From: Anadara kagoshimensis
Taxonomy: Eukaryota > Mollusca > Bivalvia > Arcoida > Arcidae
Assembly (NCBI GenBank): GCA_021292105.1
Contig: CM037857.1
Span: forward strand, 40,772,916 to 40,836,915
Direction of reading: 5' to 3'
Length of the DNA: 64,000 nt
Under the pieces are notes generated by a model, which did no database searches, was not told where the DNA came from, and saw only the letters and a program-made list of their open reading frames with translations. Made by a program: the position numbers and the translations under genes. Numbering within the stretch: the first letter of the stretch is position 1; each line of letters opens with the position of its first letter. Positions 7,670 through 52,720 of the stretch are shown one piece after another.

Positions 7670-7853
7670 CTAATTATACATTCTGCAACAACAGTAGTTT
7701 GGACCACAGTGGTCAGCTTTCCAAGTACATCCACCCTTAAAATATCTGTACACAGACATAACTGGTTTTCCTGCATCTGGTTGTATGTGAGTATGGTTTG
7801 GTTTTAGGACGTTAATTGTCTTTGAAATTAGGTACGCGTCAAAACAATCAAAC
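7670..7853 (-). pseudogene. Copy A exon 3 (C-terminal cysteine cluster)
   Basis: Follows TTTTTAG and completes the split AA|G lysine codon. It encodes FDCFDAY, PDAGKP, YRYFKGGCTWKADHCG and YCCCRMYN, then TAG at 7672-7670. It is one codon longer than copy B. Confidence 0.85.
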
Positions 7854-7929
7854 CTAAAAAAAAAAATAATAAAAAAAAAAAAATAGAAAGTAAATATTTA
7901 TCGTTCAAGAACCTTTTATTAATTAAATG

Positions 7930-8172
7930 AAAATCAATGTCCGTATCACAATCCGGAAGCAAAGTGAAAACACTGAAGCTGACAAATCAATAAAACACAT
8001 AAACTTCAATCAGGGACGTGAGGCCGGGAACTACGAAAGGGTAAGCACTTCCGGTGTAGCTGGCTACAACCACCACGTGTGTTCTCAAAATTGAAAGTGA
8101 AAGGAACCTGGGACTATGGGACATAAAAAATATCCAGGGCAATCCTGGACACGGAGACATCTTGCATATCAA
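7930..8172 (-). mobile_element. RT-element 3' fragment in intron 2 of copy A
   Basis: The minus-strand order is CTGGATATTTTTTATGTCCC, AGGTTCCTTTCACTTTC, ACGTGGTGGTTGTAGCC, GGCCTCACGTCCCTG and TTTGCTTCCGGATTGTGA. Diverged copy of the abundant 3' end. Absent from intron 2 of copy B, so it was inserted after the gene duplication or lost from B. Confidence 0.8.
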
Positions 8173-8415
8173 AAACAATTCAAATATTTTTAAAAAACAA
8201 AAATTAGTTTTTTTTTCTTAAGTTAAAGTTAGGGTAAGTTTGTAGTTCATTAGAAATCAAGCAGTTGTCTCAGCGTTTCGGCAAAAATTTCGCTTTTAAG
8301 TATACACTTTTTGCACATTGTTTCAAATTAAGACTTGAAAACTTGAAAGTCTGTTGTTTATTCCATTTGAAATTAAAAAGTAAAATTTAGCCTGATCAGT
8401 ACAATTTTTACTTAC

Positions 8416-8645
8416 TTTCTTCTCCCGTAGTTTATCATTCTAGACATAGTAGGTTTAGCTTTCCGACAGATATCGTCACACCTTGGTGCTGTCCCTCTTC
8501 CACCTCCACAATTCCTTCTTACAGCAAAAACATACGACGGCCTGTCAGTGACAGAGGTACACATAGACTGTTGCCATCTCATCAAAATAATTCAGTGCAT
8601 AAAATGGTGCAGATCCATATGTTATAGCGACACAGCTTATGATAG
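8416..8645 (-). pseudogene. Copy A exon 2 (carries the +1 frameshift)
   Basis: Bounded by a T-rich acceptor ending AG (8646-8647) and the donor GTAAGT (8410-8415). It encodes the signal-peptide end, then a segment with SMCTSVTDRPSYVFAVRRNC and a CxxxC (RCDDIC) motif once the frameshift at about 8570-8574 is passed. Confidence 0.85.
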
Positions 8646-8708
8646 CTAAAAAAAAAAACAAATGATGATAACACATATGGTGACATAAATTAATGTAATT
8701 TGAAAATT

Positions 8709-8713
<5 letters not shown>

Positions 8714-8751
<38 letters not shown>
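8714..8751. repeat. (GA)n microsatellite
   Basis: Uninterrupted GA run of about 38 bp in intron 1 of copy A. Confidence 0.95.
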
Positions 8752-8753
<2 letters not shown>

Positions 8754-8894
8754 GTTTTCCAGCCGCCCTCATACCCAAAAATTGTAGGTGTTTTTGTTAA
8801 TTTCGTTAACTTTTCGTTAAGGAATATTTTCATTAAAAAAAATATTTACATCTTTTCATGATAAAGGAAAAAAAATGTGTTTATAAGTACAACA

Positions 8895-8895
<1 letters not shown>

Positions 8896-8933
<38 letters not shown>

Positions 8934-8934
8934 A
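8896..8934. repeat. (AAAT)n microsatellite
   Basis: About ten AAAT units in intron 1 of copy A. Confidence 0.95.
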
Positions 8935-11900
8935 AAGAGTAAAAAAAAAGATTATGACTTTTGATTTAAATGAAATTATATGGTGTTGAAACCAGTGTCA
9001 GTGACACGCGGTTTCGCTGAAAACTTGTCAGTAAAAAGTTTCAAATAAAGATAGCTTTAATGGTTTTCTAGCTAAATACACAATTATCTTTCTTATACCA
9101 TTTAGAAGCAAAATGAAGTTCCCTCCTTTCAGAGACAAAGAATAATTGAAGTGTCTGAAAAACAACTTTTTTCTACATGTAAAAGGTAGAATAAGAAAGA
9201 TTTGAGTTGGATATAGAAAAGAATTCTTTAAATTAAATCTAACTAAATAACTAAAGTTAACTAAATAGATCCAGTTAATAATTCCTTTGAAATATTTGAT
9301 ATTCTGGAAAAATGTTTGTCTGAGAATTGACTAAATAAGTAACATTATTTTCAGAGTCTAAACGAGGACGTATTTTCCTGCGGCTGAATTATATAAAAGG
9401 GGGTAACTGTGTCTTTAACAATAATAATTCGAACAATTATTGTGCTAGATTTATTTATTTGTTTGTCCAACCGAAGAACTCGTATATCACAATACAGACA
9501 TTCAAGTTCATAATCAAATTACAATCCAAAAAGAACAAGGTATGTCACCTTGGTAATAAGTAACAAACGGTTTTTGTTTAAGCTGAAACCTTAATTTACT
9601 TGGCAAAAATATTTCTTGGTTTATTTTACATTTGATGAAAAATCAATAAATGCATGTATTTTAAGAATAATTTTTGAAGAGAAATGTGTCAAAAATAAAA
9701 CTTCCAGAATTTTACATATATTTTAACCGATTTACACCTAGTCCAAGAGATCATGGCTAAAATCCGGGTGAACGAGGCCAAAAGGTTTGAGGGTTGATTC
9801 TTGTAGGAAAATGTCCCTAGTTACTGAAAACCCATTTCTTACGCGTCAAATCGTTTCCGATTTTTTAATCAGAAACAGTTTTTGAAGAAAAGCCTCTGCA
9901 AATGTTAAATTTTGGTAAAAAATAAAAATTCCAGATTTTGAAGCATTTTGTGGCAAAAACAACACAAAAATGTTCATTCTATCTTTCATTGTGGACACAT
10001 GATAGATTAAAATGCAAAACATCCTGACAGTTTTCCGATTTTGTGTCAAAATTTTAAAATAAGCGATAAAATCGATGCTGTAAACTGCGTTTTTATCATA
10101 TCTACCGTCTTTCGATTCTTGTAAATCTGTTGTTTATGCATTAAATATGACAAACTATATATTTTTATAAAGCCTTGGTAGTGCTGTAGATAAAAATGTT
10201 ACAAAACTTCGGAAATATGGAACCTTAATACCGTAGCAAATTATTATGTTTCCCCTACCCCAAAAATACGAAAATGTCAAAAATTCATTATTTTGGCCCA
10301 TGCTTGCCGATAAGTGTTTAAAACAAATCATTATTGTTTGTTACATCTCCCGTCTGTTCCCGACATATTTATAAAACAATTATATGTAGAGTGCTTGGTG
10401 ATTTTATATGAAAATTTGCACTTTTCATGTAACAGTAGTTTGGAAAATGAGTTTTCATTAAATCATTTGTACTCTACTTCTTGTAATTTTGTTATATAGG
10501 CATTGAATCTCGAGATTTATATATTTCTGTATTGCCATGGTACATTTGAGTCTAACAACATAAAAACTATCGGAAATACCGAAGTTTATAGACGAAACGG
10601 ATAAATTTATTTCCCCTACCCCAAAATTGAAAAACATGTGAAAATCCATTTTTATGCAATATATGCCGATTTGTGTTTCTAATGAAGATTTCGAGCAAAA
10701 GTACCCGCAACAATGATAAAACAAGCTTCGAGGATTTTAAATATTTGTGAAATGCTTTAGCTTAAGGACAGATAGGACTAACTAATATAATAAAATTGCT
10801 TATTTTATTCATTTATATGTAAAATGCTGTAAGAAAAAAGGAGCTTTGCCTCTTGTATTTTTGTTATTTAGGCATTGAATCTCGACTGTTATCTATTGAC
10901 GTAATTCCTTGACATATAACAGTCTAATTACACCAAAAACTGTCGGAAATAGCAAAGCTTGTAGATGAGGCGAATAAATTTATTTCCCCTACCCCAAAAT
11001 TGCAAAAAATGTGAAAACCCTGTTTTAGCCAATATGTAACAATTAGTATTTCTAATGGAAGTTTCAAGCAAATGTGCATGTAAGAATGGAAAAAGAAGCT
11101 TGAAGGATACAAAATAATTTACAAAATGCATCATTTCAATGGCAGATTGGTCTAATTATTCATAGAAAAATGCCTACTTCTTTCATTTTCAATTCAATGT
11201 GCTATGGCAAAAAAGAATCTTCGCTGTTTGTATTTTTGTTATATAGGCATTGACTTTCAAATATCAGATATTGATTCAATGCGCTTACACTAAAATCATT
11301 AAAAACATGAAAATATTTCGGAAATGTCAATTTTGGTAGCTGTCATGAATCAATTGATTTCCCCGTCTCCAAAATATGAAAACATAGAAACCCTCTCCAG
11401 GCTAAGAAGTCATAGCTTACCTTTTTGCATTAGAAGAAGAAATAAAAAAAATTGTCATATGAATTCACAAAAGGGTATACTAGTATTTGAGGCATGTATG
11501 CAAATAATAGTACAAATGTAAGTGAACGGATATGTTTTCAGATTTGGTAAAAAAGCAATGTCATGAACCATATGCATGCGTTTAAATTCTACTCTGTATT
11601 CATAGAATGACAAGAAGAACACTAGCAATTCGGTAAATTACTATACTTGAAAAGTTACAGTATGAATGCCGCATTTAAGTTAAGAAACATACTAGATCAC
11701 AACTACAAATATAGAATACAGGGTCAAGTATGGAAAGTGAGGGTGAAAGGCACTGAATTTTATGTTGAACCACATTTGAATAAAACACATCGTAACTATT
11801 AAAACAACGACTGGACCCTCTGGCAAAAGACTAAAAGTCAACTGATAGAAATCCAAAATATTTGCAAATAAGACAATGCGCAAAAATAATTGTGTAAGTG

Positions 11901-12244
11901 TTACGCACTCTAAACATTTAAAATAATCAACACTTTGTCATTTGGAAGGCAGTGTCAGTCAGTCTTTGGACAAATCCTTAAAATCATCTTCAAAATTACA
12001 AACCATTTACTTGGACATGCATATAAATCTACATCCTTCCTCTTAAAATGATTAAAGACACATTAAGGTGACACAGGTCTGTTTGTCGAACAGTACCTGA
12101 TGGGATGGCAGAGAGTGGTTACTATGATCAGCTCTTCTTTGGTTTCTGTTAATCTCTAACAATAAATTGGTTTGTTCAATTTCCTTCCAAACGGTCTGAA
12201 TTGAAATGACTTTTCTTGTTACTACTTTCACTCTCAATTTTGAT

Positions 12245-12350
12245 TTCACATGTGGTGACAGGAGGCGGTTACCCTTCCCGAGCACCCGGATTTTTCCCCT
12301 GCCAATGTTTACGTGTTTAACTTTGCCAGTTTTTTAACTTCGTTTTTGTT
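12245..12350 (+). mobile_element. RT-element 3' UTR scrap inside the foldback loop
   Basis: ACAGGAGGCGGTTACCCTTC, GAGCACCCGG and TTTACGTGTTTAAC match the 3' UTR order. Short and diverged. Confidence 0.55.
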
Positions 12351-12712
12351 ATTGTGATATAATAATTATGTTTGTGTTTATGTTTACTGATTTACACAGC
12401 GCATTTAATCAGTTCTCTATTGCCTCAATTCAAAAATGTTTTTTTATAACATTGATCTCTTTCTATTTGTCAGTTGAACACTTTACTCATATCATCATAC
12501 CCATTCTTCCATCGATCTTTGCAACTCCGGTAATGTTAGCAATTCACTTTTTCAATCCGTCCTTTGCTGTCCATATCTACTTATTTTAGCTAAAACATAA
12601 GTATCTACGGGGTTTATATTCTCAATCCGAAAGCATTTCTTATATCCGTGATTCTCCTTTTTTCTGGTTTTCTATGACATATTATTCGTGATTATATGGC
12701 AAAAGAAGTTTA

Positions 12713-13213
12713 CTAAACCATATTTGTTATTACTAAAACCCCGTTTATAAAAGATTGCAGCCACATTTTACATAACATTGCAACTTTTTCTATTGTCATC
12801 ATTTTATTAAGAATTGACCTAATGTACAATTTCAGTCTCTGCTCAAAAACTTGTATTCTTAAAAGAACGTGGCACTGGGCACCTGGTAACAGGCTTAAGG
12901 TTGAAAGGTGTCCAATACCACTTTGTTTTATCATTATAATATGGCCAGGCCATTTGTGATGTGATAGCTATTAATAATTCCTTTAAAAGATACAAAGATG
13001 GAGTTATTGGACATAGAAATTTTGTCAGTTTGAAGTGAAATTGAAAATTTTACGGAGTGTGCAGACTTTTTAAAATAAGATTTAATGGAGACCGACAATG
13101 TACATTAGGTCACTTCAAAATTAAATGATTCCACAAGAATAAATTGCAAAGTTTTGTAAAATGTGGCTACAATCTTTGATAGACGGGTTTTGGTAATAAT
13201 GAATATGGTTTAG
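12713..13213. mobile_element. 0.5-kb hairpin MITE nested in the foldback loop
   Basis: Inverted arms of about 110 bp run CTAAACCATATTTGTTATTA ... GACCTAATGTACA (from 12713) and, inverted, TGTACATTAGGTC ... TAATGAATATGGTTTAG (to 13213). The arms are roughly 80 percent alike and non-coding. TSD not resolved. Confidence 0.8.
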
Positions 13214-13417
13214 AAAGCTCATGGATCTGATTGAACTTTATCGAATGGAGATATGTCTTATAAAACCCAATAGCTTTATATAAAACCATAACCAGAAATG
13301 CCTTACACTAAGTTTTACCATATTTTAATATTATGTTTCACTAGAGATGACATTATTTGCAATTATTATTTTATAGTATTAGGTTGTTCGAAAAGATATG
13401 TGTATTCTTAATTTTTC

Positions 13418-13550
13418 ACACGTGGCGGGTGTAATTGCTAAACAGGAGGTGCTTAAGGAGCACCCGCCAAATTTGCTATTTTGGAAGATTTTACTTTTGT
13501 GGGGATTGTGATCTTGACAAGGATTGGTATGTTTGTTTTTGATTTTCAAG
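13418..13550 (+). mobile_element. RT-element 3' UTR scrap inside the foldback loop
   Basis: CACACGTGGCGGGTGTAAT, AAACAGGAGGTGCTTA, GAGCACCCG and GGATTGGTATGTTTGTTTT are in the expected order, with a short deletion. Confidence 0.65.
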
Positions 13551-14954
13551 TTTAAATATGAATATTTCATAATTTCTTTCCTTAATTTAAAAAAAATCAT
13601 TTTGCTATGACTTTGAATCATTAAAACATAATTGTTGCATGGACACTTGCTTAAAACCTTCACCAAAAGCATACATGGCCTAAAAAGTTTTTTTCACACT
13701 TTTGGGGTAGGGGAAATAAATTTATTGGCCTTATTTACAAGCTTTGCTATTTCCGACAGATTTTGGTGTTATTAGACTTTATATGTCAAGGAATTACGTC
13801 AATAGATAACAGTCGAGATTCAATGCCTAAATAACAAAAATACAAGAGGCAAAGCTCCTTTTTTCTTAGCATTTTACATATAAATGAATAAAATAAGCAA
13901 TTTTATTATATTAGTTAGTCCTATCTGTCCTTAAGCTAAAGCATTTCACAAATATTTAAAATCCTCGAAGCTTGTTTTATCATTGTTGCGGTACTTTTGC
14001 TCGAAATCTTCATTAGAAACACAAATCGGCATATATTGCATAAAAATGGATTTTCACATGTTTTTCAATTTTGGGGTAGGGGAAATAAATTTATCCGTTT
14101 CGTCTATAAACTTCGGTATTTCCGATAGTTTTTTATGTTGTCAGACTCAAATACCATGGCAATACAGAAATATATAAATCTCGAGATTCAATGCCTATAT
14201 AACAAAATTACAAGAAGTAGAGTACAAATGATTTAATGAAAACTCATTTTCCAAACTATTGTTACATGAAAAGTGCAAATTTTCATATAAAATCACCAAG
14301 CACTCTACATATAATTTTTTATAAATATGTCGGGAACAGACGGGAGATGTAACAAACAATAATGATTTGTTTTAAACACTTATCGGCAAGCATGGGCCAA
14401 AATAATGAATTTTTGACATTTTCGTATTTTTGGGGTAGGGGAAACATAATAATTTGCTACGGTATTAAGGTTCCATATTTCCGAAGTTTTGTAACATTTT
14501 TATCTACAGCACTACCAAGGCTTTATAAAAATATATAGTTTGTCATATTTAATGCATAAACAACAGATTTACAAGAATCGAAAGACGGTAGATATGATAT
14601 AAACGCAGGTTACAGCATCGATTTTATCGCTTATTTTAAAATTTTGACACAAAATCGGAAAACTGTCAGGAAGTTTTGCATTTTAATCTATCATGTGTCC
14701 ACAATGAAAGATAGAATGAACATTTTTGTGTTGTTTTTGCCACAAAATGCTTCAAAATCTGGAATTTTTATTTTTTACCAAAATTTAACATTTGCAGAGG
14801 CTTTTCTTCAAAAACTGTTTCTGATTAAAAAATCGGAAACGATTTGACGCGTAAGAAATGGGTTTTCAGTAACTAGGGACATTTTCCTACAAGAATCAAC
14901 CCTCAAACCTTTTGGCCTCGTTCACCCGGATTTTAGCCATGATCTCTTGGACTA

Positions 14955-15819
14955 ACCATATTTTGATATTTGTAAGCATTGGAAGTTTAGCCTTGGACGC
15001 ATTTTTGACACCCAGTTTTGAATAGTGATGTTCTTCCTAAAATATACATCCGGTATAAGCAAAAAGTCACGAGCTTGATCACATATCACGAAGGTATGCA
15101 ACTTGAAAATATTTAAAGTTTTGTTGTATGTCAAAAACTATTACCTGGGTTGATCTGTAGGTAAATGATGTTTTCAGAGGTGATAAACTATCAAAGAAAA
15201 TAAGATTTCGAGAAAAATTGAAATAAATCGAGATTTGAACTTATGTCCTTCATGTTATAAAGCAACCTCGACCCTCACTAGGTCACCATAGCAGTTAACA
15301 TTTGAAGTGTTAAAGTGCAAAAAGGACATTGTTTTCTCGTCAGAGAACCATGTATTTACAACTCGTACTGATGTCCTTGTGAAATTGTGAAAATATTGTC
15401 AGATATTTTATTGCAAAAAATTGCCTGTCCGAGAACAATTTGAAAATTATTATAAAAGTCGGTGAAATCCATCATTTTTTTGTATTTTGGTTTATTAGAG
15501 TGACCGTAAAATGTCATTCAAATGTATTCTTGCAAACTCTTAAAAATTTAAATCTAATATATTTTCGTTTAAAGTATTTTTATTTGTAGATATTTATTTT
15601 TCACAAAAAAAATCCATGGGATAGAAAATTATGATTTTTGACGAGTCGATGCATAAAAACAGAATTGGTAAAACAACGATACATTTGGCCCAACGAATGG
15701 CATTAGACAGGATTTTTGACAAATATTTTGAATTTTATCAGAAACTTTAGCGTTTTATAAAGTTTTAAGAGCGAAGTAAAACGAATAAGTATTTCAAAAA
15801 ATAAAAATATCTCACTTAC
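14955..15819. other. Intron 1 of copy A, homologous to intron 1 of copy B
   Basis: The stretch from about 15230 (GATTTGAACTTATGTCCTTC) and 15620-15780 (TTATGATTTTTGACGAGTCG) aligns with 22797 and 23137 onward in copy B. The gene duplication therefore included introns and not only processed mRNA. Confidence 0.7.
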
Positions 15820-15844
15820 CTGTGACCACCAATACGGAAGTCAT
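15820..15844 (-). pseudogene. Copy A exon 1 (start of signal peptide)
   Basis: ATG at 15844-15842 starts MTSVLVVT plus one base, then GTAAGTG. It differs from copy B exon 1 (MTSILSFV) at only a few bases. The start was chosen because it gives a signal peptide when joined to exon 2 (...AIISCVAITYG). Confidence 0.8.
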
Positions 15845-15916
15845 GTTCTGAAGTAATCAAAAGGATTTTAATATGCAAACTAAATTGACTTTACTTTTAG
15901 TCTGTTTTAGTCTTTG

Positions 15917-15926
15917 TATTTATATA
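15917..15926 (-). promoter_or_regulatory. TATA box of copy A
   Basis: TATATAAATA on the minus strand, about 73 bp upstream of the ATG. The same motif stands about 62 bp upstream of the copy B ATG, so the core promoter was duplicated with the gene. Confidence 0.65.
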
Positions 15927-17289
15927 AAACCTAAAAGATGCCTATCAGTTTATACAATTGTAATTTATAACTTTTTCCGAGAATATAGGATTCAGCAATT
16001 TTTTTCAGTAACAGCAGGATTTTTATTATGTTTGATCAACGTAATCACCGCATGGTGGAGGATTTAATTAACAAAAGTGTCTAATATTTGATATATTACC
16101 AAAAAATGCGATAAACTTGTTTGAATACGGTCATGTAACCAGTTCCTGAACAAGACATCCTATTTCTCCAGTAAACACATCCGTGAATAATAAAATCTGA
16201 AATATTGGGTTAAGAACACGTAGTCTCTATTTGAAAAGTATATATACAATGGTAATGATGTTGAATGTATTTGGGTTTCATTTCAGTACAATTAATGCCG
16301 TTAACTAGGATTTATTTTCGATTTAAAAAATGAACGATCACAAAACGTAGTTTTACGCAATCTGATCGGATGATAGTTTGCTACAAAATATACTGCAACG
16401 TGATGAAAAGTCCATGTCAATAAATGTTATATCGATATATTTATTGATTCATGTATTTATTTTAATTAAAATGTAAAATTATGAGTTGACAAATCAAAGT
16501 CAAATTCACAACATAACTACAAATCTAAATTTGTAAGAAATGTGAAATATTGTTGAAAGTATGACATCTCTGTCTTCAATAAAAACCCTGTATATATTTC
16601 ACGTTCCATAAACTAGTAAGACAATGTTCTTTTCTTATAAAGTTCGTCAGTTTAAAAGTTTTGACTTTGCTCTGGGATTGTGACTTGAACATGGATTGAT
16701 ATGTTGTTGTTAGATTAAGATGCAACTTTTTTATTTGCTTCAATTAAGTCGACGAGTTCTATGGACAAAACAAATAATTAACACAATAGCATATATTTTT
16801 GTCGTTGTGATTTTGTAGGTTTTTTGCATTAGGAAAATTCATGATTTATGGGAGAAGAACAATATAGATACCGTCGCCAGTTGCAAGAGAAAAAGAGTAA
16901 ATTTACTTAAAAGTCAAAGTAACAGCAAGCTATATTTCTATTTTTTAAGTGATTACGATCAATGTCAGGTGTGTTATTTGATCTTGTGGATAGAAATAAC
17001 GTAAACACAAAAGGTAACTATAAAATATATTTTTATACCAAGAGTAGTTTTTAATCAGGTATATATAACTTGTTAAATGAATTTATGATAAATAAAAGTT
17101 TGTCTATCTGAATGTGCTTGATAAATATTCAATCTTTTCTCACATTCAAAGTATTTGATGGTTTTGCAGTTTGTGTTATTGTGGCTTGTTTTTTTAAATA
17201 CATGTTTTAGAATGAAACACAAACTATAGCATCCCACGCACAGATCACAATTTCTAACGGTAGGTATAAATGAAATACAAATACATTAA
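15927..17289. other. Unassigned non-coding sequence
   Basis: No gene supported. About 16605-16720 (AAAGTTTTGACTTTGCTCTG, GGATTGATATGTTG) looks like another decayed plus-strand scrap of the RT-element 3' UTR. Confidence 0.4.
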
Positions 17290-17800
17290 TCCTCAATGAA
17301 AGTAAAATCTATGAAAAACAAACTCAAGTAAAGTAAAAACGTTGAAAGTAGCAAATTTAGTTGAGCACGTCACGAAAGTTAGACCGGAAGTAAGACCGGG
17401 TGCTCCGGAAGGACAGACTCTTTCCTTTTAGCTACATATATCCGCCACTTGTGAAATCAAGATTGAGAATGAAATAAACATGGACGTCAAATATATCTAG
17501 AGTGATTTTGGATACAGAGGCACCATGCTTATCAGCGACATTGTGATGACGACCACGAGACTGTTTCGGTACCTTGATGAGACTTGGGTCGTATTATCCT
17601 TTGGTCATCAATTTGTTTGTAAACAGCTTGCCTCGTTGTATTAGATTCCTATAGCTTATCAACTGTAAATGAATACACCATTAGCAGGAGTAGCAAATAT
17701 ATTGCTGCATAGAAAAGGATAGTTGGCAATAAAAGATTAAAGACATCACGTTTTTCAAACAGTTACGAAAACTGGGAAATTGAAGTTTAACACTTAAAGT
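17290..17800 (-). mobile_element. RT-element 3' portion, diverged
   Basis: Minus-strand matches run from the 3' UTR (GAGCACCCGGTCTTACTTCC, ATGTTTATTTCATTC) through the RT C-terminus. They continue into upstream codons near 17660-17780 (TATTGCCAACTATCCTTTTC, ATGCAGCAATATATTTGC), so this copy reaches further 5' than most. Many frameshifts. Confidence 0.75.
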
Positions 17801-18422
17801 TCAACAAGAGGAGTGTCTTTGTCATGTCATACTATCAGAAACAGTTGAACCCTATTTGATATGATGACTGATAGACCACAATAATGTTCAAAATGAAAAT
17901 AGAGTAATCGCTAGCCAGCAGATATTTCGGATGAATTTTGCATTATTTATAAAGGGGTTTGAAAAATATATTTCAACAAAAAATGGTTAGGTCCATAAAA
18001 ATAAAAAAAGTCATTTTTGAGAAGAAAATGTTAATCTCAATTATGATAATTTATCGTTGTAGTTTCTGTGTGTATTATGTCAAGGGGAATAACTCTGTAT
18101 GTCTTGTCATATTATTTTGTATGTAAGAGTTATGTTTCTTGTATGAGCATGCGCAGTTGCTAAATAAAAAGAGCATGGTTTACGAAGCCGATTGTTTTGT
18201 GTTCAATCACGTTTTATCAGGAAACAGATCCAACAATCGTTCGATAAATTATCTCTTAAATTTGTCTGTATTAAAATCAAGTGAATGTATAGTTCGCAGT
18301 TTAACTTATATACAACAGATTTGTGAAATGCACTTCCAATGAAGGTATGATTAACATATTTATGTGAAGTGTACGCAGCCCGGTATGGCTATCAAATTTA
18401 GACACACAACAGCTTACTATGC
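17801..18422. other. Unassigned non-coding sequence
   Basis: No domain, splice-supported exon or clear repeat was recognised. The 67-codon open frame at 18139-18342 has no supporting features. Confidence 0.4.
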
Positions 18423-18426
18423 TTAA

Positions 18427-19413
18427 GGGTCATCTAAATAGGAAATTCAAGTGAAAACAATTTCGTTAAAAAGCGTGAAATAGGGGTATAATTATGAAAT
18501 TACCTACACAAGTGTGGAGATTTTTAAACAAAAATACAGAAGGAATTGATAATTTAAGAAATTTTAAAATATTTGTTGCATTTTTTAAAGAAAATTGTGC
18601 AAAAATACACGTGTTGGAGAAAATAGCTTACACCTTGAATAACAATTTAATTTTAAAAAAATGAAAAGATATTAAGACAGTCAACATCATAGAGCAGTGC
18701 AAAGGGGCCAGAGTTTGTTAAAAAAATACGAGGTTTTTGAAAACTCGACAATTTACGGTTGAGGTTATCTACGATTTATTTTCCTTGTAAAAATGCGTTT
18801 ACAAGGCGTGATATTTACATTCTAAGGCCACTACTAATCCAAAATACAACAGGTCACTAAAAGTGCACGGTCACCCAATACTGTTCTATTTAAATTGAGG
18901 TAAATATTGTTTGGTTTCAACAATGTTGAACTATATAAAGCCGAATATGCCTCAGCAATAATCAAGTAATATTCAAATTTAGCTTTTATAATCTTCCCTT
19001 GGATCGTTGGTAGCCTTAGAATATAACTATCACGCCTGGTACACGCATTTTTAAAAGGAAAACACAACATAAAAGACCTCAACCGTAAATTGTCGAGTTT
19101 TCAAAAACCTCGTATTTCTTTAACAAACTCTACCCCCTTTGCACTGCTCTATGACGTTGACTATCTTAATATCTTTTCATTTTTTAAAATCAATTCGTTA
19201 TACAAGTGTAAGCTATTTTCCCCAACACGTGTATTTTTGCACAATTTTCTTTAAAAAATGCAACACATATTTTAAAATTGCTTAAATTATCAATTCCTAC
19301 TTTATTTTTATTTATAAATCTTCACACTGTTGTAGGTAATTTCATAATTATAACCCTCTTTCACGCTTTTCAACCAAATGGTTTTCACTTGAATTTTCCT
19401 ACTTAAATGACCC
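18427..19413. mobile_element. TTAA-flanked foldback MITE, 987 bp
   Basis: TTAA at 18423-18426 and 19414-19417 flanks inverted arms GGGTCATCTAAATAGGAAAT ... and ... ATTTTCCTACTTAAATGACCC. Arms are about 340 bp each (18427-18767 and 19076-19413), with several indels but long matches (CGTAAATTGTCGAGTTTTC; TTTGCACAATTTTCTTTAAA). The loop has no transposase. TTAA duplication is typical of piggyBac, Kolobok and some Sola elements; the GGGTCAT end does not decide between them. Confidence 0.85.
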
Positions 19414-19831
19414 TTAACTTGCGATTGGTATATTGTTATCCATCTTCGCGTATTTTTGTGGTGTAGATGTGCGTTCACAATCTGATTAAGGTTGCGGAAT
19501 TCGATAAAAGTGTTGTCAAAAGCACTGGATATCCCACCGCCTAAATACAAACACCTAATCTGGCATTAAAAGATTTGTCATTTCGCTGGCAGAAGCTTGG
19601 TAGTTTGGTAACTGTATTTCGGATTCTTCCACAAAACGAGGAGTGATAATATGTATGTGAGAGAACCTTGATCAGATTGTGAACGCACACCTACTCCTCT
19701 TTTAATATCGCCAAACATATTTAAAAATGAGTGAGCTAGGAATTGAAATGAACCGGTATTTCCTAATAAAAATGAAATTTGATTAACCCTCAAGCAATTA
19801 AGGATACAGGAATATCACCAAAGATTATTTG

Positions 19832-19960
19832 TACATTATTATGTTTTCATGAGGGACCTGTGCTACTATAGTATTGTCTTGGGGAGTATTGTGCTCCCAA
19901 CTATACTCCCCAAGACAATACTATAGTAGCACTGGTCCCGAAGGAAGACATAATAATGTA
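19832..19960. mobile_element. Near-perfect hairpin, 129 bp
   Basis: TACATTATTATGTTTTCATG AGGGACC ... GTCTTGGGGAGTAT pairs with ATACTCCCCAAGAC ... GGTCCC GAAGGAAGACATAATAATGTA, with a loop of about 16 bases. The 37-bp inner arms are almost perfect. Probably a tiny MITE or hairpin insertion; transcription of it is not shown. Confidence 0.75.
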
Positions 19961-20733
19961 TTAGTGCATTCTAATCATTGATCAATGGCCATTAAATTTA
20001 CAGACAAACATTTAGACATAAGGCAGTTCCAATTGTGTAGTGTACAATCTGGTCAGAAATGAATTTGTCTGGGTCCTCGTAGCCGAATCTTGAAACCACG
20101 TTTGTTTACAAAATTGCGTTCCCAAGGTGGCGCGTGCAAAAAGTATTCTATCCGTCTGGAAAAACAATAGTTACTTGCTGTCAACGGTACTATACTCGTT
20201 GCTAAGGACAGACAGAAACTATACAAAATAGAGTACATATACATTTCTAATCAATTTCTTACAATTTATCATGTGATGTACTAAATTTGTATAGTACAAG
20301 CTTAATCCACGCAGTTGGTACCTACAGTGATACGTTGATGATTCCGGTTATACTAAATTACATATTATACCAGTGTTTATTTTACAGCACCATACGGCAG
20401 TTATGGCACACAATTTCCAATCAGTAGTGCTTTGACTTAGATTGGGAAACCAAACCTTCTTAAAAGGGATGAAAATTTCCAAAAGGTCCAAAATTTCACC
20501 AAATTTAGCTTAGGCAATACATTGATGAGGAAGTAAACTTTAGTTTTTGAAGATTTAACAAATTTTACCAGCAGGAAATTTAGAATAAAAAATCAAGAAG
20601 AATCCTGTCTCATTCAGTCAGAAAGCTAGAGCATGCAGGATAGGAGGCCATTCCTTCTTATAGTGTTGTCTAGCCGACTCCACACTAGAAGATTCAACAA
20701 AAACGAAAAAGAAGAAATATAACTTTATATTGT
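19961..20733. other. Unassigned intergenic sequence downstream of copy B
   Basis: No gene or repeat recognised with confidence. Confidence 0.4.
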
Positions 20734-20739
20734 TTTATT
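20734..20739 (-). terminator. PolyA signal of copy B
   Basis: AATAAA on the minus strand, 58 bp after the stop codon. Conserved in position with copy A. Confidence 0.7.
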
Positions 20740-20797
20740 GACATAAATTTTGTATCAATTTAAACACGAAATTGATAATAGGTAACTGATATAGCGG

Positions 20798-20978
20798 CTA
20801 ATACATTCTGCAACAACAGTAGGTTGGACCACAGTGATCAGCTTTCCAAGTACATCCACCCTTAAAATATCTGTACACACGCATAAATGGTTTCCCTGCA
20901 TCTGGTTGTATGCTAGTTGGGTTTGGTGTGAGAATTGCATGTTTTTTTCCGATATTGTAAGCATCAAAACAATCGAAC
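20798..20978 (-). CDS. Copy B exon 3
   Basis: Acceptor TTTTATTTTAG ends at 20979. The exon completes the lysine codon AA|G, then FDCFDAYNIGKK ... GGCTWKADHCGPTYCCCRMY and TAG at 20800-20798. Confidence 0.87.
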
Positions 20979-23302
20979 CTAAAATAAAATTAAAAACATG
21001 GACAGAAAATTTTGATCATGAGATTTAAATATCAGTTTAAAACATTCGTTTGTATAATAATAATAATAATAATAATAATACATGTCATGTACACTGTTGT
21101 AGTGTAATATTTTGTCTAGTCCTACTTAAATTACTGTACGTTTAGAACTGACCTTGTTTCTACATCCAATGTTAATGACGAGTTTAAACAAACTTTGTTT
21201 TACTATTGCTTTATTAGAAGTCAAGCAGTTGTTTAGCTTTTTTGCCATTGGCGAAAATTACGCTTGAGTGATTTACACTTTTAATCGTTTGCAAATTAAG
21301 ACATATAGAAAGCGATTAAACGTAAAACGAATTTAAATTTTTTAATAAAAATCACAAAAATGCATAGTAAAAATATCTTCAATTCTTTAAAAATAACGGT
21401 GTGATACGTGATAATTTAAACAAAAATTATGTTATTTATTCCATTTTGAAACCATTAAACGAATTCCTACGCTAATCTGTTCAATTGTTGACTTACTTTG
21501 TTCTCTGATGCTGAATCATTTCAGACATAGCAGGTTTAGCTGTACGACAGATAGCGTTACAAGTTGGCGCTGCACCTTTACCACCTGCACAATTCCTTCT
21601 TACAGCGAAAACATACGACGGCCTGTCGGTGACGGAGGTACACATAGACTGCGCCATCTCATCTAAATAATTCATTGCATAGTATGGTGCAGATCCATAT
21701 GCCATAGCGACACAGCTTATGATAGCTAAAATAAAGAAATAAAAAATATGGCCTTTTGGTAACTGTCAAAAATGATTTTTTAAACAAAGAGAGAGAGAGA
21801 GATAGATAGATAGAGAGAGAGAGAGACAAGGAGAAAGGGAAAGAGACATAGTCTGGATGTTCTCTGCGGTTGTGTTTGCGTAAATAAAAAATAAATGGTC
21901 ATGGATGTGTTCCGCCCACCCCCCCCCCCCCCAAAAAAAAAAAAAAGAAAAAAAGAATGGGGATGCGTTTTTTGTTTCTCCCTGCTTAGGTTGACGTATG
22001 TCAATACAATGTGTTTTGAATGCATTAGGATCTCGAATTTTAAGTATATAAAATGTATAAAAGTAGACATTTTTGCATTTTTTTCAATTTTTTTGATTTG
22101 CTTTCGTTGAAGCACAGAGATTATTGAGCAAATCTTTACATCCATAATTGTCATTTTTCAACCTATGTCAGGGAAACTAAAATGTGTTGATTTGCATAAC
22201 ACTTCACTAAGAAATCATGAAAAATGATATCCTGGATTTGTTAGAAAACAACCAACATTTGACTCTCATCTGAATTTCTTGTCACTTCGCTTTCGATAGC
22301 GGAAAAAGTTTTCCCATTTATCCTATATTCTCTGTGTTTTTTCAAAAACCCTCGTGATAAATTTCATTTTGAAACCTTCGAACAAAGTAATGCGCTTCCG
22401 AATCAAGATATCAGTTGATCAGTTCCTAAAATCTGGTTTTTTCCAAAAATATATTTTAAGTAGTGTATATTAGTATGTTTGTTTTTGATTAGATTTACAC
22501 AATTTATTTTAATAATAAAATCATAACGAAAAAAGCATTTATTTCTCGTTTAACAACAGGAGTTCCTCTCATTTAAGATTATATCTAAGAGTGTAAATGC
22601 ATGTATTTTACTAAAACCAGCTTAGGTTATACACGTTTATGATTAAGGTCAAAACTATAGTTACTCGACACAAAATGAGGATCGTATTAATATGCCAGTG
22701 ACTCCACATTATTTCACATGTGATGAAAACATTAATAGATAGTATAAATAATTTGGAAAGTCATGGAAACATAGATTTCTAGAAAAGACAAAATGGGATT
22801 TGAACCTATGTACTTTATTTTATAAGCGACTTCACCACGCATTTGCTAATCACAGAGTTATGTTGGAGGTGTTAAAGTTTAATCAATGGTTTTTTTTTCC
22901 GCAGTTTTTAAAATTTGACCTTTTTCTCATCGGATTACCACTTTTTCATTATATTGTGAAAATATGGTACTACTCGAGTACCATTTGTAATTTGTTTTAA
23001 AAGACGAGAAATTAATCATTATTATATTTTGGCATAAAATGACATCATAAAATGTTACACTTAGAACCTTGCAGAGGATCTGACATTATTATATGGATAA
23101 ATTCCGATGAAACGCTCATACCTTAATAGGACAGAAAATGATGATTTTTGAAGAGTCAATGCATAGAAAAATCGGATTTTATTACAAAAAGACATGTTGA
23201 AGTTAACAATCGAAACGCATTTGACAAAAACTAAAACCTTTACCATTTCTATGAGGTAAAAAGTATCAGGCACTTACCTACGAAACTCAATATGGAAGTC
23301 AT
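20798..23302 (-). CDS. Secreted cysteine-rich protein, copy B (intact, three exons, 144 aa)
   Basis: Minus-strand gene with exons 23278-23302, 21497-21725 and 20798-20978 (25+229+181 nt = 145 codons). Introns have GTAAGT donors and AG acceptors, phases 1 and 2. The product starts MTSILSFVAIISCVAMAYG, a good signal peptide, so it is probably secreted. The mature part (about 125 aa) has ten cysteines: SMC, RNC, PTCNAIC, FDC, GGC, DHC and a CCC triplet near the C-terminus, so up to five disulphides. Basic residues are frequent (VRR, QRTK, GKK). The spacing recalls secreted defence or matrix peptides of molluscs, but I do not recognise the family and assign no function. Paralogue copy A lies about 5 kb away in the same orientation. 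Strong conservation between copies in exons against diverged introns indicates selection on the protein. Confidence 0.88.
21055..21080. repeat. (AAT)n microsatellite in intron 2 of copy B
   Basis: About eight AAT/TAA units. Confidence 0.9.
21497..21725 (-). CDS. Copy B exon 2
   Basis: Acceptor CTTTATTTTAG before 21725; donor GTAAGT at 21496-21491. It supplies the rest of the signal peptide, the MAYGSAPYYAMNYLDEM segment, and four mature cysteines including CNAIC. Confidence 0.87.
21787..21831. repeat. (GA)n/(GATA)n microsatellite in intron 1 of copy B
   Basis: GA repeats interrupted by GATAGATAGATA, followed by a C11 and A-rich run at about 21919-21945. Copy A intron 1 also has a (GA)n near the equivalent position (8714-8751), so the microsatellite was probably in the ancestral intron. 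Confidence 0.85.
23278..23302 (-). CDS. Copy B exon 1
   Basis: ATG at 23302-23300, eight codons plus one base (MTSILSFV, G), then GTAAGTG. A short first exon encoding half of the signal peptide is common for secreted peptides. Confidence 0.82.
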
Positions 23303-23363: not shown

Positions 23364-23373
23364 TATTTATATA
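23364..23373 (-). promoter_or_regulatory. TATA box of copy B
   Basis: TATATAAATA on the minus strand, followed by ACAGAGAGTAAAAGC. About 62 bp upstream of the ATG. Confidence 0.65.
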
Positions 23374-51439: not shown

Positions 51440-52720
51440 CTCTATGTCAACTTTATCGACTTTGAGAAAGCGTTTGACTGTCTTAACAGGGAAATTCTAT
51501 GGAAACTCCTGGACAGCTACGGAGTACCAAACAAAATTGTCACTCTTATAAAGAATATGTATGAGGGAATGAAATGCCAGGTTGTACAAGATAGAGACAC
51601 AAGTGAATAATTTGAAATGAGATCAGGTGTTAGGCAAGGCTGCTTACATTTACCTTTTCTTTTTCTTTTGGCCATTAACTAGATCATGAGGGAGGGAATC
51701 AAGTTCAATCAACATCAGAGAAAAGAAACGGAATCCACTGGAATTTAACAAACCAACTAGAGGACCTGAATTTTGCTGACGATCTAAGATCAAGTTTAAT
51801 CAACATCAGTGAAAAGAAACGGAATCCACTGAAATTTAACAAACCAACTAAAGGACCTGGATTTTGCTGACGATCTAGCTCTTCTTTCTCATATTCATGA
51901 CAAAATGCAAGATAAAACATCCATATTAGTTGAAAATACAGCAAAAACAGAACTTCGTATAAATAAGGAAAAGACCAAAATCATGAGAATAAATAAAAAA
52001 ATAATATCAATAATATTGAAATAGATAACACACATCTTGAAATTATAATCTTTATTGTATATCTTGGAAGTGTGGTTAATAACCTTGGAGGAACAAAAGA
52101 TGACGTGATAGCAAGATTAGCAAAAGCATGCACTGCATTTGGCATGTTTCGAAAAGTCTGGAAATCAAGACAGATAACAACTAAGACTAAGCTCAGGATA
52201 TTCAATAGCAACGTCAAATCAATCTTGCTATATGGCTCAGAAACATGGAGCCTCACAGTCAACAACATCAACAAGCTTCAGATATTCATAAACAAATGTC
52301 TGAGATCCATCCTTCAGATATGGTGGCCAAACAAAATCACAAATGAAGATCTTTTGCAAAGAACTAAACAAACATCTTTTGTTCAAGAAATAAAAAAGAG
52401 AAAGTGAAAGTGGTTAGGTCACACACTGCGCAAAGGCAAGACCGACATCACATGCCAAGCCCTTCAATTAACACCTCAAGGAAAAAGGAAAAGGAGAAGA
52501 CTAAGACTTACATGGAGAAAAGCACTGGAGAAGATGTTAGAAAAAGAATATACATGGAACAACATCCACCAACTAGCAAAAGACAGAAGAATATGAAGAA
52601 AAATTTTCAGTGGCCTATACGCCACTGGGGAGTGAAAAAAGCTAAAGTAAGTCAAGGTCGAGGAAAAACATTTTACCCTTGTAAATGCTGGAGGATCGAC
52701 CTTTAGGGCCACAATTTGAC
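51440..52720 (+). pseudogene. LINE RT and C-terminal region (RTE-like), inactive
   Basis: RT palm codons (FIDFEKAFDCLNREILWKLL near 51450; GVRQGCL near 51625) precede a 91-bp tandem duplication (about 51697-51787, 51788-51878) that doubles the FADD catalytic segment. AKTELRINKEKTKIMRI follows near 51940. A 111-codon frame at 52072-52407 has GGTKDDVIARLAKACTAFG and KLRIFNSNVKSILLYGSETW. The C-terminal block (KWKWLGHTLRKGK near 52405) lies in the next frame. The YLG...DVxxRI...LLYGxETW layout suits RTE/related LINEs. Several frameshifts; not functional. Confidence 0.87.

Follow-up and report, generated by a model that had tools for sequence, protein, structure and literature searches.

Probable myticusin-family genes, one intact and one with a broken frame, in a duplicating array of Anadara kagoshimensis

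Two genes (copies A and B) in the 64,000-nucleotide stretch of Anadara kagoshimensis DNA analyzed here (the window) likely belong to the myticusins, which are defence peptides of molluscs; we assign this reading a probability of roughly 0.75. They would encode secreted, cationic peptides in arrays that duplicate and decay, with an antimicrobial action predicted from homology. The first-pass annotation had called the family unrecognized and left it without a name; it can be named as myticusin, with copy B aligning to myticusin-1 of Mytilus coruscus (sequence from a table in PMC5484132) at a pairwise E of 9e-14 and with 10 of 10 cysteines in register.

Copy B, on the minus strand, has three exons and is intact, with a product of 144 aa, as had been proposed. 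Its features are as follows:

23364-23373, minus strand, TATA box TATATAAATA, 71 nt upstream of the ATG
23302-23278, minus strand, exon 1 (25 nt), start of the putative signal peptide, ending in phase 1
21725-21497, minus strand, exon 2 (229 nt), remainder of the putative signal peptide and mature cysteines 1-4
20978-20798, minus strand, exon 3, mature cysteines 5-10 including CCC, with a TAG stop at 20800-20798
20739-20734, minus strand, polyadenylation signal AATAAA

Both introns are of the GT-AG type, the first (1.55 kb) in phase 1 and the second in phase 2, and the junctions originally given for them (23277/21726 and 21496/20979) have the correct coordinates in the sequence. The N-terminus is hydrophobic, judged by eye, in copy B and in eight further complete models. 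In copy B this stretch appears to be a signal peptide, with a cleavage site likewise placed by eye, and it contains Cys 13. The ten mature cysteines already reported for this product (37, 54, 64, 68, 88, 127, 134, 139, 140, and 141) include the CCC triplet. Counted from the assumed cleavage, the mature part is about 125-126 aa long, and the peptide has a net charge of +8. Copy B is presumably expressed as a precursor whose signal peptide would be cleaved to leave a mature peptide of about 125 aa; this would be secreted and cationic, and the ten invariant cysteines would probably form five disulfide bonds.

Identity between copy B and myticusin-1 is only 31% over 113 aa (31-34% across alignments), which might suggest that a small secreted protein has come to look like myticusin through a chance or convergent cysteine pattern. 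A search of the genome with myticusin-1 could be read in the same direction, as single exons matched weakly (best E 5.2e-4, and 0.33 for exon 2 of copy B). We consider convergence highly improbable, however. The alignment score of 138 was reached by none of 2000 shuffles in which the cysteines were held fixed (mean 37, SD 7, maximum 77), and 14 of the 15 exon matches to myticusin-1 at E<=10 fell inside loci found independently with copy B. The fifteenth, C12:33479381, lacks the family motif and was set aside as a chance match. Sequences on contigs C4, C5, and C16 are, moreover, intermediate. A comparison of myticusin-1 with 12 distinct mature sequences of this genome (13 in all) shows no variation in the ten cysteines or in nine further residues, and the blocks AQ...C and CGP(N/T)(Y/F)CCC are kept.

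Searches of Pfam, NCBIfam, and PDB with copy B, and of Pfam and PDB with family alignments of two or eight sequences, returned no significant match; one of eight members scanned matched Pertussis_S1 in Pfam at a chance-level E of 0.18. Bacterial collections gave 16 pattern matches and viral collections 20, none of which could be confirmed as a relative. CRASP of Achatina achatina, which the accessible part of its report (PMC4596865) describes as acidic and predicted to be all-alpha, is a secreted molluscan protein with ten cysteines, as is copy B. We rejected this identity for copy B, since the spacing differs by eye and CRASP is described there with two enclosed-bond pairs and without CCC.

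Copy A lies on the same strand as copy B and has the same plan, which agrees with the first-pass description of three exons, matching intron phases, TATA box, and polyadenylation signal. Its features are:

15917-15926, minus strand, TATA box TATATAAATA, 82 nt upstream of the ATG
15844-15820, minus strand, exon 1 (25 nt), phase as in copy B
9739-14954, no strand assigned, fold-back repeat in intron 1, with arms at 9739-10919 and 13779-14954 whose pieces are 97-100% complementary
8645-8416, minus strand, exon 2 (230 nt), frame lost after ...FDEMA
7853-7670, minus strand, exon 3, open in its own frame
7627-7622, minus strand, polyadenylation signal AATAAA, with a second AATAAA at 7602-7597

The introns of copy A occupy the same positions as those of copy B, with intron 1 extended to about 7.2 kb. 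Exons 2 and 3 of copy B match copy A at E values of 7e-68 and 6e-48, so their likeness is not due to chance. The exons had been described as near-identical around diverged introns; the divergence of the introns stands, but exons 2 and 3 are 82-86% identical. With a dS of about 0.31 over the codon pieces and a second intron that is hardly alignable (about 50% identity), A and B are old duplicates.

The single additional base noted earlier in copy A was borne out, as its exon 2 has 230 nt where 11 of the 15 close copies have 229 nt. Whether copy A is freshly broken, as was claimed, is less settled. The frame break is the sole lesion seen: the splice sites and the stop codon are preserved, as is exon 3. 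The dN/dS of copy A is 0.31 against locus L042 and 0.47 against copy B (0.17-0.18 for its codon pieces against cluster 1). The lack of other lesions and the low ratio against L042 fit a recent break, and they also fit a gene that is no pseudogene at all, the one-base difference then stemming from an error in sequencing or assembly or from an allele that segregates. We regard this last reading as possible but doubtful. Three further close copies (L032, L040, and L041) have exon 2 lengths that likewise break the frame, and L043 is missing a splice donor, so decay, as seen in this same assembly, appears to be common among the close copies. Copy A is an older paralogue of copy B that was probably broken recently.

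The two genes were first presented as a tandem pair. They are neighbours, but they belong to a set of 19 family loci found by a genome search with copy B, and A is not the closest copy of B. The 15 close copies form two clusters that share a contig, and the four distant copies lie elsewhere, on C4, C5, and C16. Splice sites fall at the same two places in all 19 loci (by script or by eye, with exon 1 left aside on C4, C5, and C16). The nearest relatives of copy B are L042 and L043, 0.13 and 0.35 Mb away; dS between B and L042 is 0.06-0.07, against 0.31 between A and B. In the assembly, 10 of the 15 close copies appear intact and five appear broken, which supports the birth-and-death evolution of an expanding and decaying secreted, cysteine-rich family that was suggested initially. 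Local duplication would enlarge the arrays, and frameshifts or splice-site losses would take members out of them.

Defence, one of several roles put forward at first, is the likeliest function judged by homology to myticusin, and an antimicrobial action of the window peptides may be inferred on the same grounds. In the accessible literature, myticusin-1 (104 aa, 10 Cys) is reported to affect Gram-positive bacteria more than Gram-negative bacteria or a fungus, and myticusin-beta to be antibacterial and antiprotozoal. Expression in mussels is reported there to peak 36 h after exposure to heat-killed E. coli. A point against this reading is that 12 of the 13 genes have no NF-kB-like motif within 800 nt upstream; copy B has one inverted site.

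The myticusins of Mytilus also include myticusin-alpha and myticusin-beta; the comparison was made with myticusin-1. Besides the ten mature cysteines in register, copy B and myticusin-1 have in common that they are small secreted peptides (secretion being predicted for copy B) with an early MAQSxC motif and a late HCGPx(Y/F)CCC motif. Copy B is about 20 residues longer, although length cannot serve as a criterion for myticusins with a single reference sequence. Nor does charge define the family, since myticusin-1 has a net charge of 0, whereas the window subfamily ranges from +8 to +14. The C4 copies, L046 and L047, share the splice positions of copy B and have ten and eleven cysteines, respectively. 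L046 is 37% identical to copy B, and its cysteine spacing (15,5,3,19,30,4,4,0,0) is nearly equal to that of myticusin-1 (16,5,3,21,30,4,4,0,0).

These differences leave room for another account, in which the cationic, long-loop subfamily of the window has a scaffold homologous to that of myticusin but is secreted for a different purpose (a wound or shell matrix, a coat for gametes or eggs, signalling, or defence against parasites), the antimicrobial role belonging to the Mytilus-like C4 copies. The longer loops of the subfamily (9, 38, and 6, vs. 5, 30, and 4 in myticusin-1) and its charge would fit this, as would the fact that both C4 copies group with myticusin-1 of M. coruscus and not with copy B (support 0.90). 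The CRP-I genes of Mytilus edulis, likewise clustered, cysteine-rich, and secreted, with many pseudogenes, are described as unlikely to be antimicrobial in the accessible part of the report (PMC10138031), which shows them to be a separate peptide family (C-C-CC-C-C, knottin fold) for which we claim no homology. Myticusin is also among the transcripts raised in mussel mantle under acidification. According to the accessible part of one mussel study, it rose after sham injection with sterile seawater and not in infected animals, which was read as a response to injury. We nonetheless think another job unlikely: the subfamily retains the ten cysteines and both conserved blocks, and antimicrobial peptides are usually positively charged.

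Open reviews, in their accessible parts, list myticusins under Mytilus, and one states that no known antimicrobial peptide is homologous to them. The novelty here is modest, with myticusin already named from Mytilus in the open literature and a family of 19 loci now placed outside that genus. In the genome, the big defensin VpBD of Venerupis had no good counterpart (best E 0.09), and mytimacin of M. galloprovincialis matched at only 35-40% identity; this speaks against Mytilus but is no proof, both being variable gene families. COX1 matches were seen on C4. The family supplies intermediates for defining myticusins by their fixed residues (ten cysteines, AQ, and GP), loop differences, and array turnover, and it makes concrete B-type and C4-type peptides available for comparison of activity.

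We suggest, tentatively, that the myticusin family has a longer history in molluscs than listings confined to Mytilus imply, and that it is represented here by a cationic, long-loop subfamily in arrays with arms-race-like recent sisters. If so, amino acid change between recent sister copies would equal or exceed silent change, as an arms race would predict, and individuals would each have a particular combination of working copies and broken ones. The close copies as a whole are under constraint, with dN/dS of 0.11-0.16 between the two clusters. The ratio for B and L042 is 1.2-1.5, with dN not significantly above dS for this pair (Fisher p 0.48). It differs from the ratio for A and B (p 0.047) and from that for the between-cluster pair B and L034 (p 0.0003), in which synonymous sites are near saturation.

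Both genes lie at the positions given in the first-pass annotation, with these exons among them:

Copy B exon 1: 23302-23278, minus strand
Copy B exon 2: 21725-21497, minus strand
Copy B exon 3: 20978-20798, minus strand
Copy A exon 1: 15844-15820, minus strand

Copy B has two GT-AG introns, the first in phase 1 and the second in phase 2, and encodes a 144-aa product whose ten cysteines lie downstream of a putative signal peptide, as had been described. Copy A shares this layout, and the position of its first exon gives an intron 1 of about 7.2 kb. Its exon 2 measures 230 nt rather than 229 nt and the reading frame is lost past ...FDEMA, in keeping with its earlier description as broken. The two copies are 82-86% identical in exons 2 and 3 and about 50% identical in intron 2, with a dS of 0.31. 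This region also holds two fold-back (inverted) repeats. The arms of the one within copy A intron 1 (window 9739-10919 and 13779-14954) are about 1.2 kb long, 97-100% complementary in pieces and contain internal sub-repeats; it is perhaps a young fold-back mobile element. The other lies between copies A and B (window 18443-18842 and 18999-19396; 88% complementary).

Sequence searches of Pfam, NCBIfam, and PDB gave no significant match. The family name came from a literature text search using CGPNYCCC-type motif strings, which led to a table in PMC5484132 that includes Mytilus coruscus myticusin-1. Copy B aligns to this peptide with 31% identity across 113 residues (pairwise E 9e-14) and all ten cysteines in register. 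When cysteine positions were fixed and the remaining residues permuted, none of 2000 shuffles scored as high as the real alignment (138, against a shuffle mean of 37 and a maximum of 77); the likeness therefore exceeds that expected from a common cysteine count. By this alignment and control, the family that the first-pass annotation could not name is a known one, myticusin.

Searching the assembly that contains the window (1.115 Gb, 36 contigs) with copy B returned at least 39 exon matches at E ≤ 10. Grouped by position, these gave at least 19 loci, all counts being lower bounds:

11 loci: C1, 35.69-35.98 Mb
4 loci (A, B, L042, and L043): C1, 40.78-41.14 Mb
1 locus: C16
1 locus: C5
2 loci: C4

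The 15 loci of the two C1 clusters are referred to as close copies. The same search with Mytilus myticusin-1 gave 15 matches at E ≤ 10, 14 of them in loci found with copy B; the remaining match, on C12, lacked the family motif and was rejected. Each match covers a single exon and is weak when taken singly: the strongest, on C4, has 37% identity and E 5.2e-4, and copy B exon 2 was matched at E 0.33.

Family members end exon 1 in phase 1 and exon 2 in phase 2, at splice sites located with a script or by inspection, exon 1 being sought in the C1 copies, and these places are unchanged in frame-broken copies. A TATA-like box, scanned with a loose pattern and without a shuffle control, lies 71-82 nt upstream of the ATG in all 13 close copies examined (A, B, and L031-L041). 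An alignment of 13 distinct mature sequences, namely myticusin-1 and 12 from 15 loci of this genome (L043 included; A, L032, L040, and L041 excluded), shows no variation at the ten cysteines or at nine further columns (A, Q, A, R, A, P, Y, G, P). The C4 copies (L046 and L047) share the short loops of myticusin-1 and cluster with that peptide at a support of 0.90. In the window subfamily the loops are longer and the net charge is +8 to +14; the charge is +5 and +2 for the C4 copies, +2 for the C16 copy, -1 for the C5 copy, and 0 for myticusin-1. At L031 (C1:35682500-35688500), the TATA box and exon 1 are doubled (at 2734 and 3173) ahead of a single gene, which has one additional mature cysteine.

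Exon 2 is 229 nt long in 11 of the 15 close copies and has a frame-breaking length in the other four (A, 230; L032, 227; L040, 227; L041, 228). The exon 1 donor of L043 (C1:41139000-41148600) is AT, not GT; its exons 2 and 3 are intact, with a coding part identical to that of L042. These lengths and this donor thus leave ten close copies that look intact and five that look broken, as read from one assembly alone. L042 and L043 are the closest relatives of copy B. The pairs L035/L039, L036/L037, and L042/L043 show zero differences across the 402 coding nt compared, and their adjoining intron and 3' pieces are 98.2-100% identical. These duplications are recent, and that of A and B is older. Near-identical recent duplicates together with broken copies make visible the birth-and-death evolution proposed earlier; a published parallel is the CRP-I cluster of M. 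edulis, for which about 50 genes and pseudogenes are reported (PMC10138031). A minisatellite (48 bp × 24 copies; L035 3829-4981) adjoins a cluster-1 gene.

Between the two C1 clusters, dN/dS is 0.11-0.16 in one computation and 0.12-0.18 in another, low ratios indicating that the protein is constrained; values inside cluster 1 span 0.17 to 0.61. Copies B and L042 differ by 25.5 non-synonymous and 4.5-5.5 synonymous changes, none touching a cysteine, and their dN/dS of 1.2-1.5 does not exceed 1 significantly (p 0.48 by Fisher's test). This ratio differs from that of A and B (p 0.047) and from that of the between-cluster pair B and L034 (p 0.0003), the latter comparison being weakened by silent-site saturation between clusters.

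Myticusin-1 is reported as a 104-aa peptide with ten cysteines, more active against Gram-positive than against Gram-negative bacteria and a fungus (PMC5484132), and myticusin-beta as antibacterial and antiprotozoal (PMC10608444). From the published work on function and expression, the product of the genes described here is probably a secreted, disulfide-bonded cationic defence peptide, and by homology may have antimicrobial action. An NF-kB-like site was absent from 12 of 13 upstream regions, which counts against an antimicrobial reading. In mussels, heat-killed E. coli is reported to bring myticusin expression to a peak at 36 h (PMC7551771), and expression is also reported to rise in animals injected with filtered seawater, not in infected ones (PMC6401078). 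Tabulated means for M. coruscus mantle are highest under acidification plus shell damage and lower under shell damage alone, the latter not different by the table's letters (PMC10639161).

The low identity of this genome's matches to Mytilus peptides (35-40% for M. galloprovincialis mytimacin, 37% for the best myticusin-1 match) suggests that the genome is probably not that of a Mytilus. Myticusins are tabled under Mytilus spp. in PMC12466427 and appear under M. coruscus, without homologues among known antimicrobial peptides, in PMC10608444. Passages retrieved from open-licence PMC literature placed no myticusin outside Mytilus, save the text of PMC12466427, which treats mussels and oysters jointly. 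The genes described here belong to a known family, with a lineage-specific subfamily and visible birth and death, and should be useful to workers on molluscan antimicrobial peptides.

Elsewhere in the genome, a 38-kb stretch at C9:50550706-50588245 contains four macin-like matches, 35-40% identical to mytimacin of M. galloprovincialis and three of them interrupted by a TGA; they are perhaps a further clustered defence-peptide family. On C4, a contig of nuclear size, four matches to cytochrome oxidase 1 (C4:4487676-4537603) contain in-frame TGA codons and reflect either a nuclear insertion of mitochondrial DNA or a join in assembly. The window itself has an ORF with a KY-like immunoglobulin-like domain at 2214-2759 (PF23265, E 7.8e-17) and one with DUF6451 at 51997-52407 (E 7.6e-17), the latter a possible retroelement remnant.
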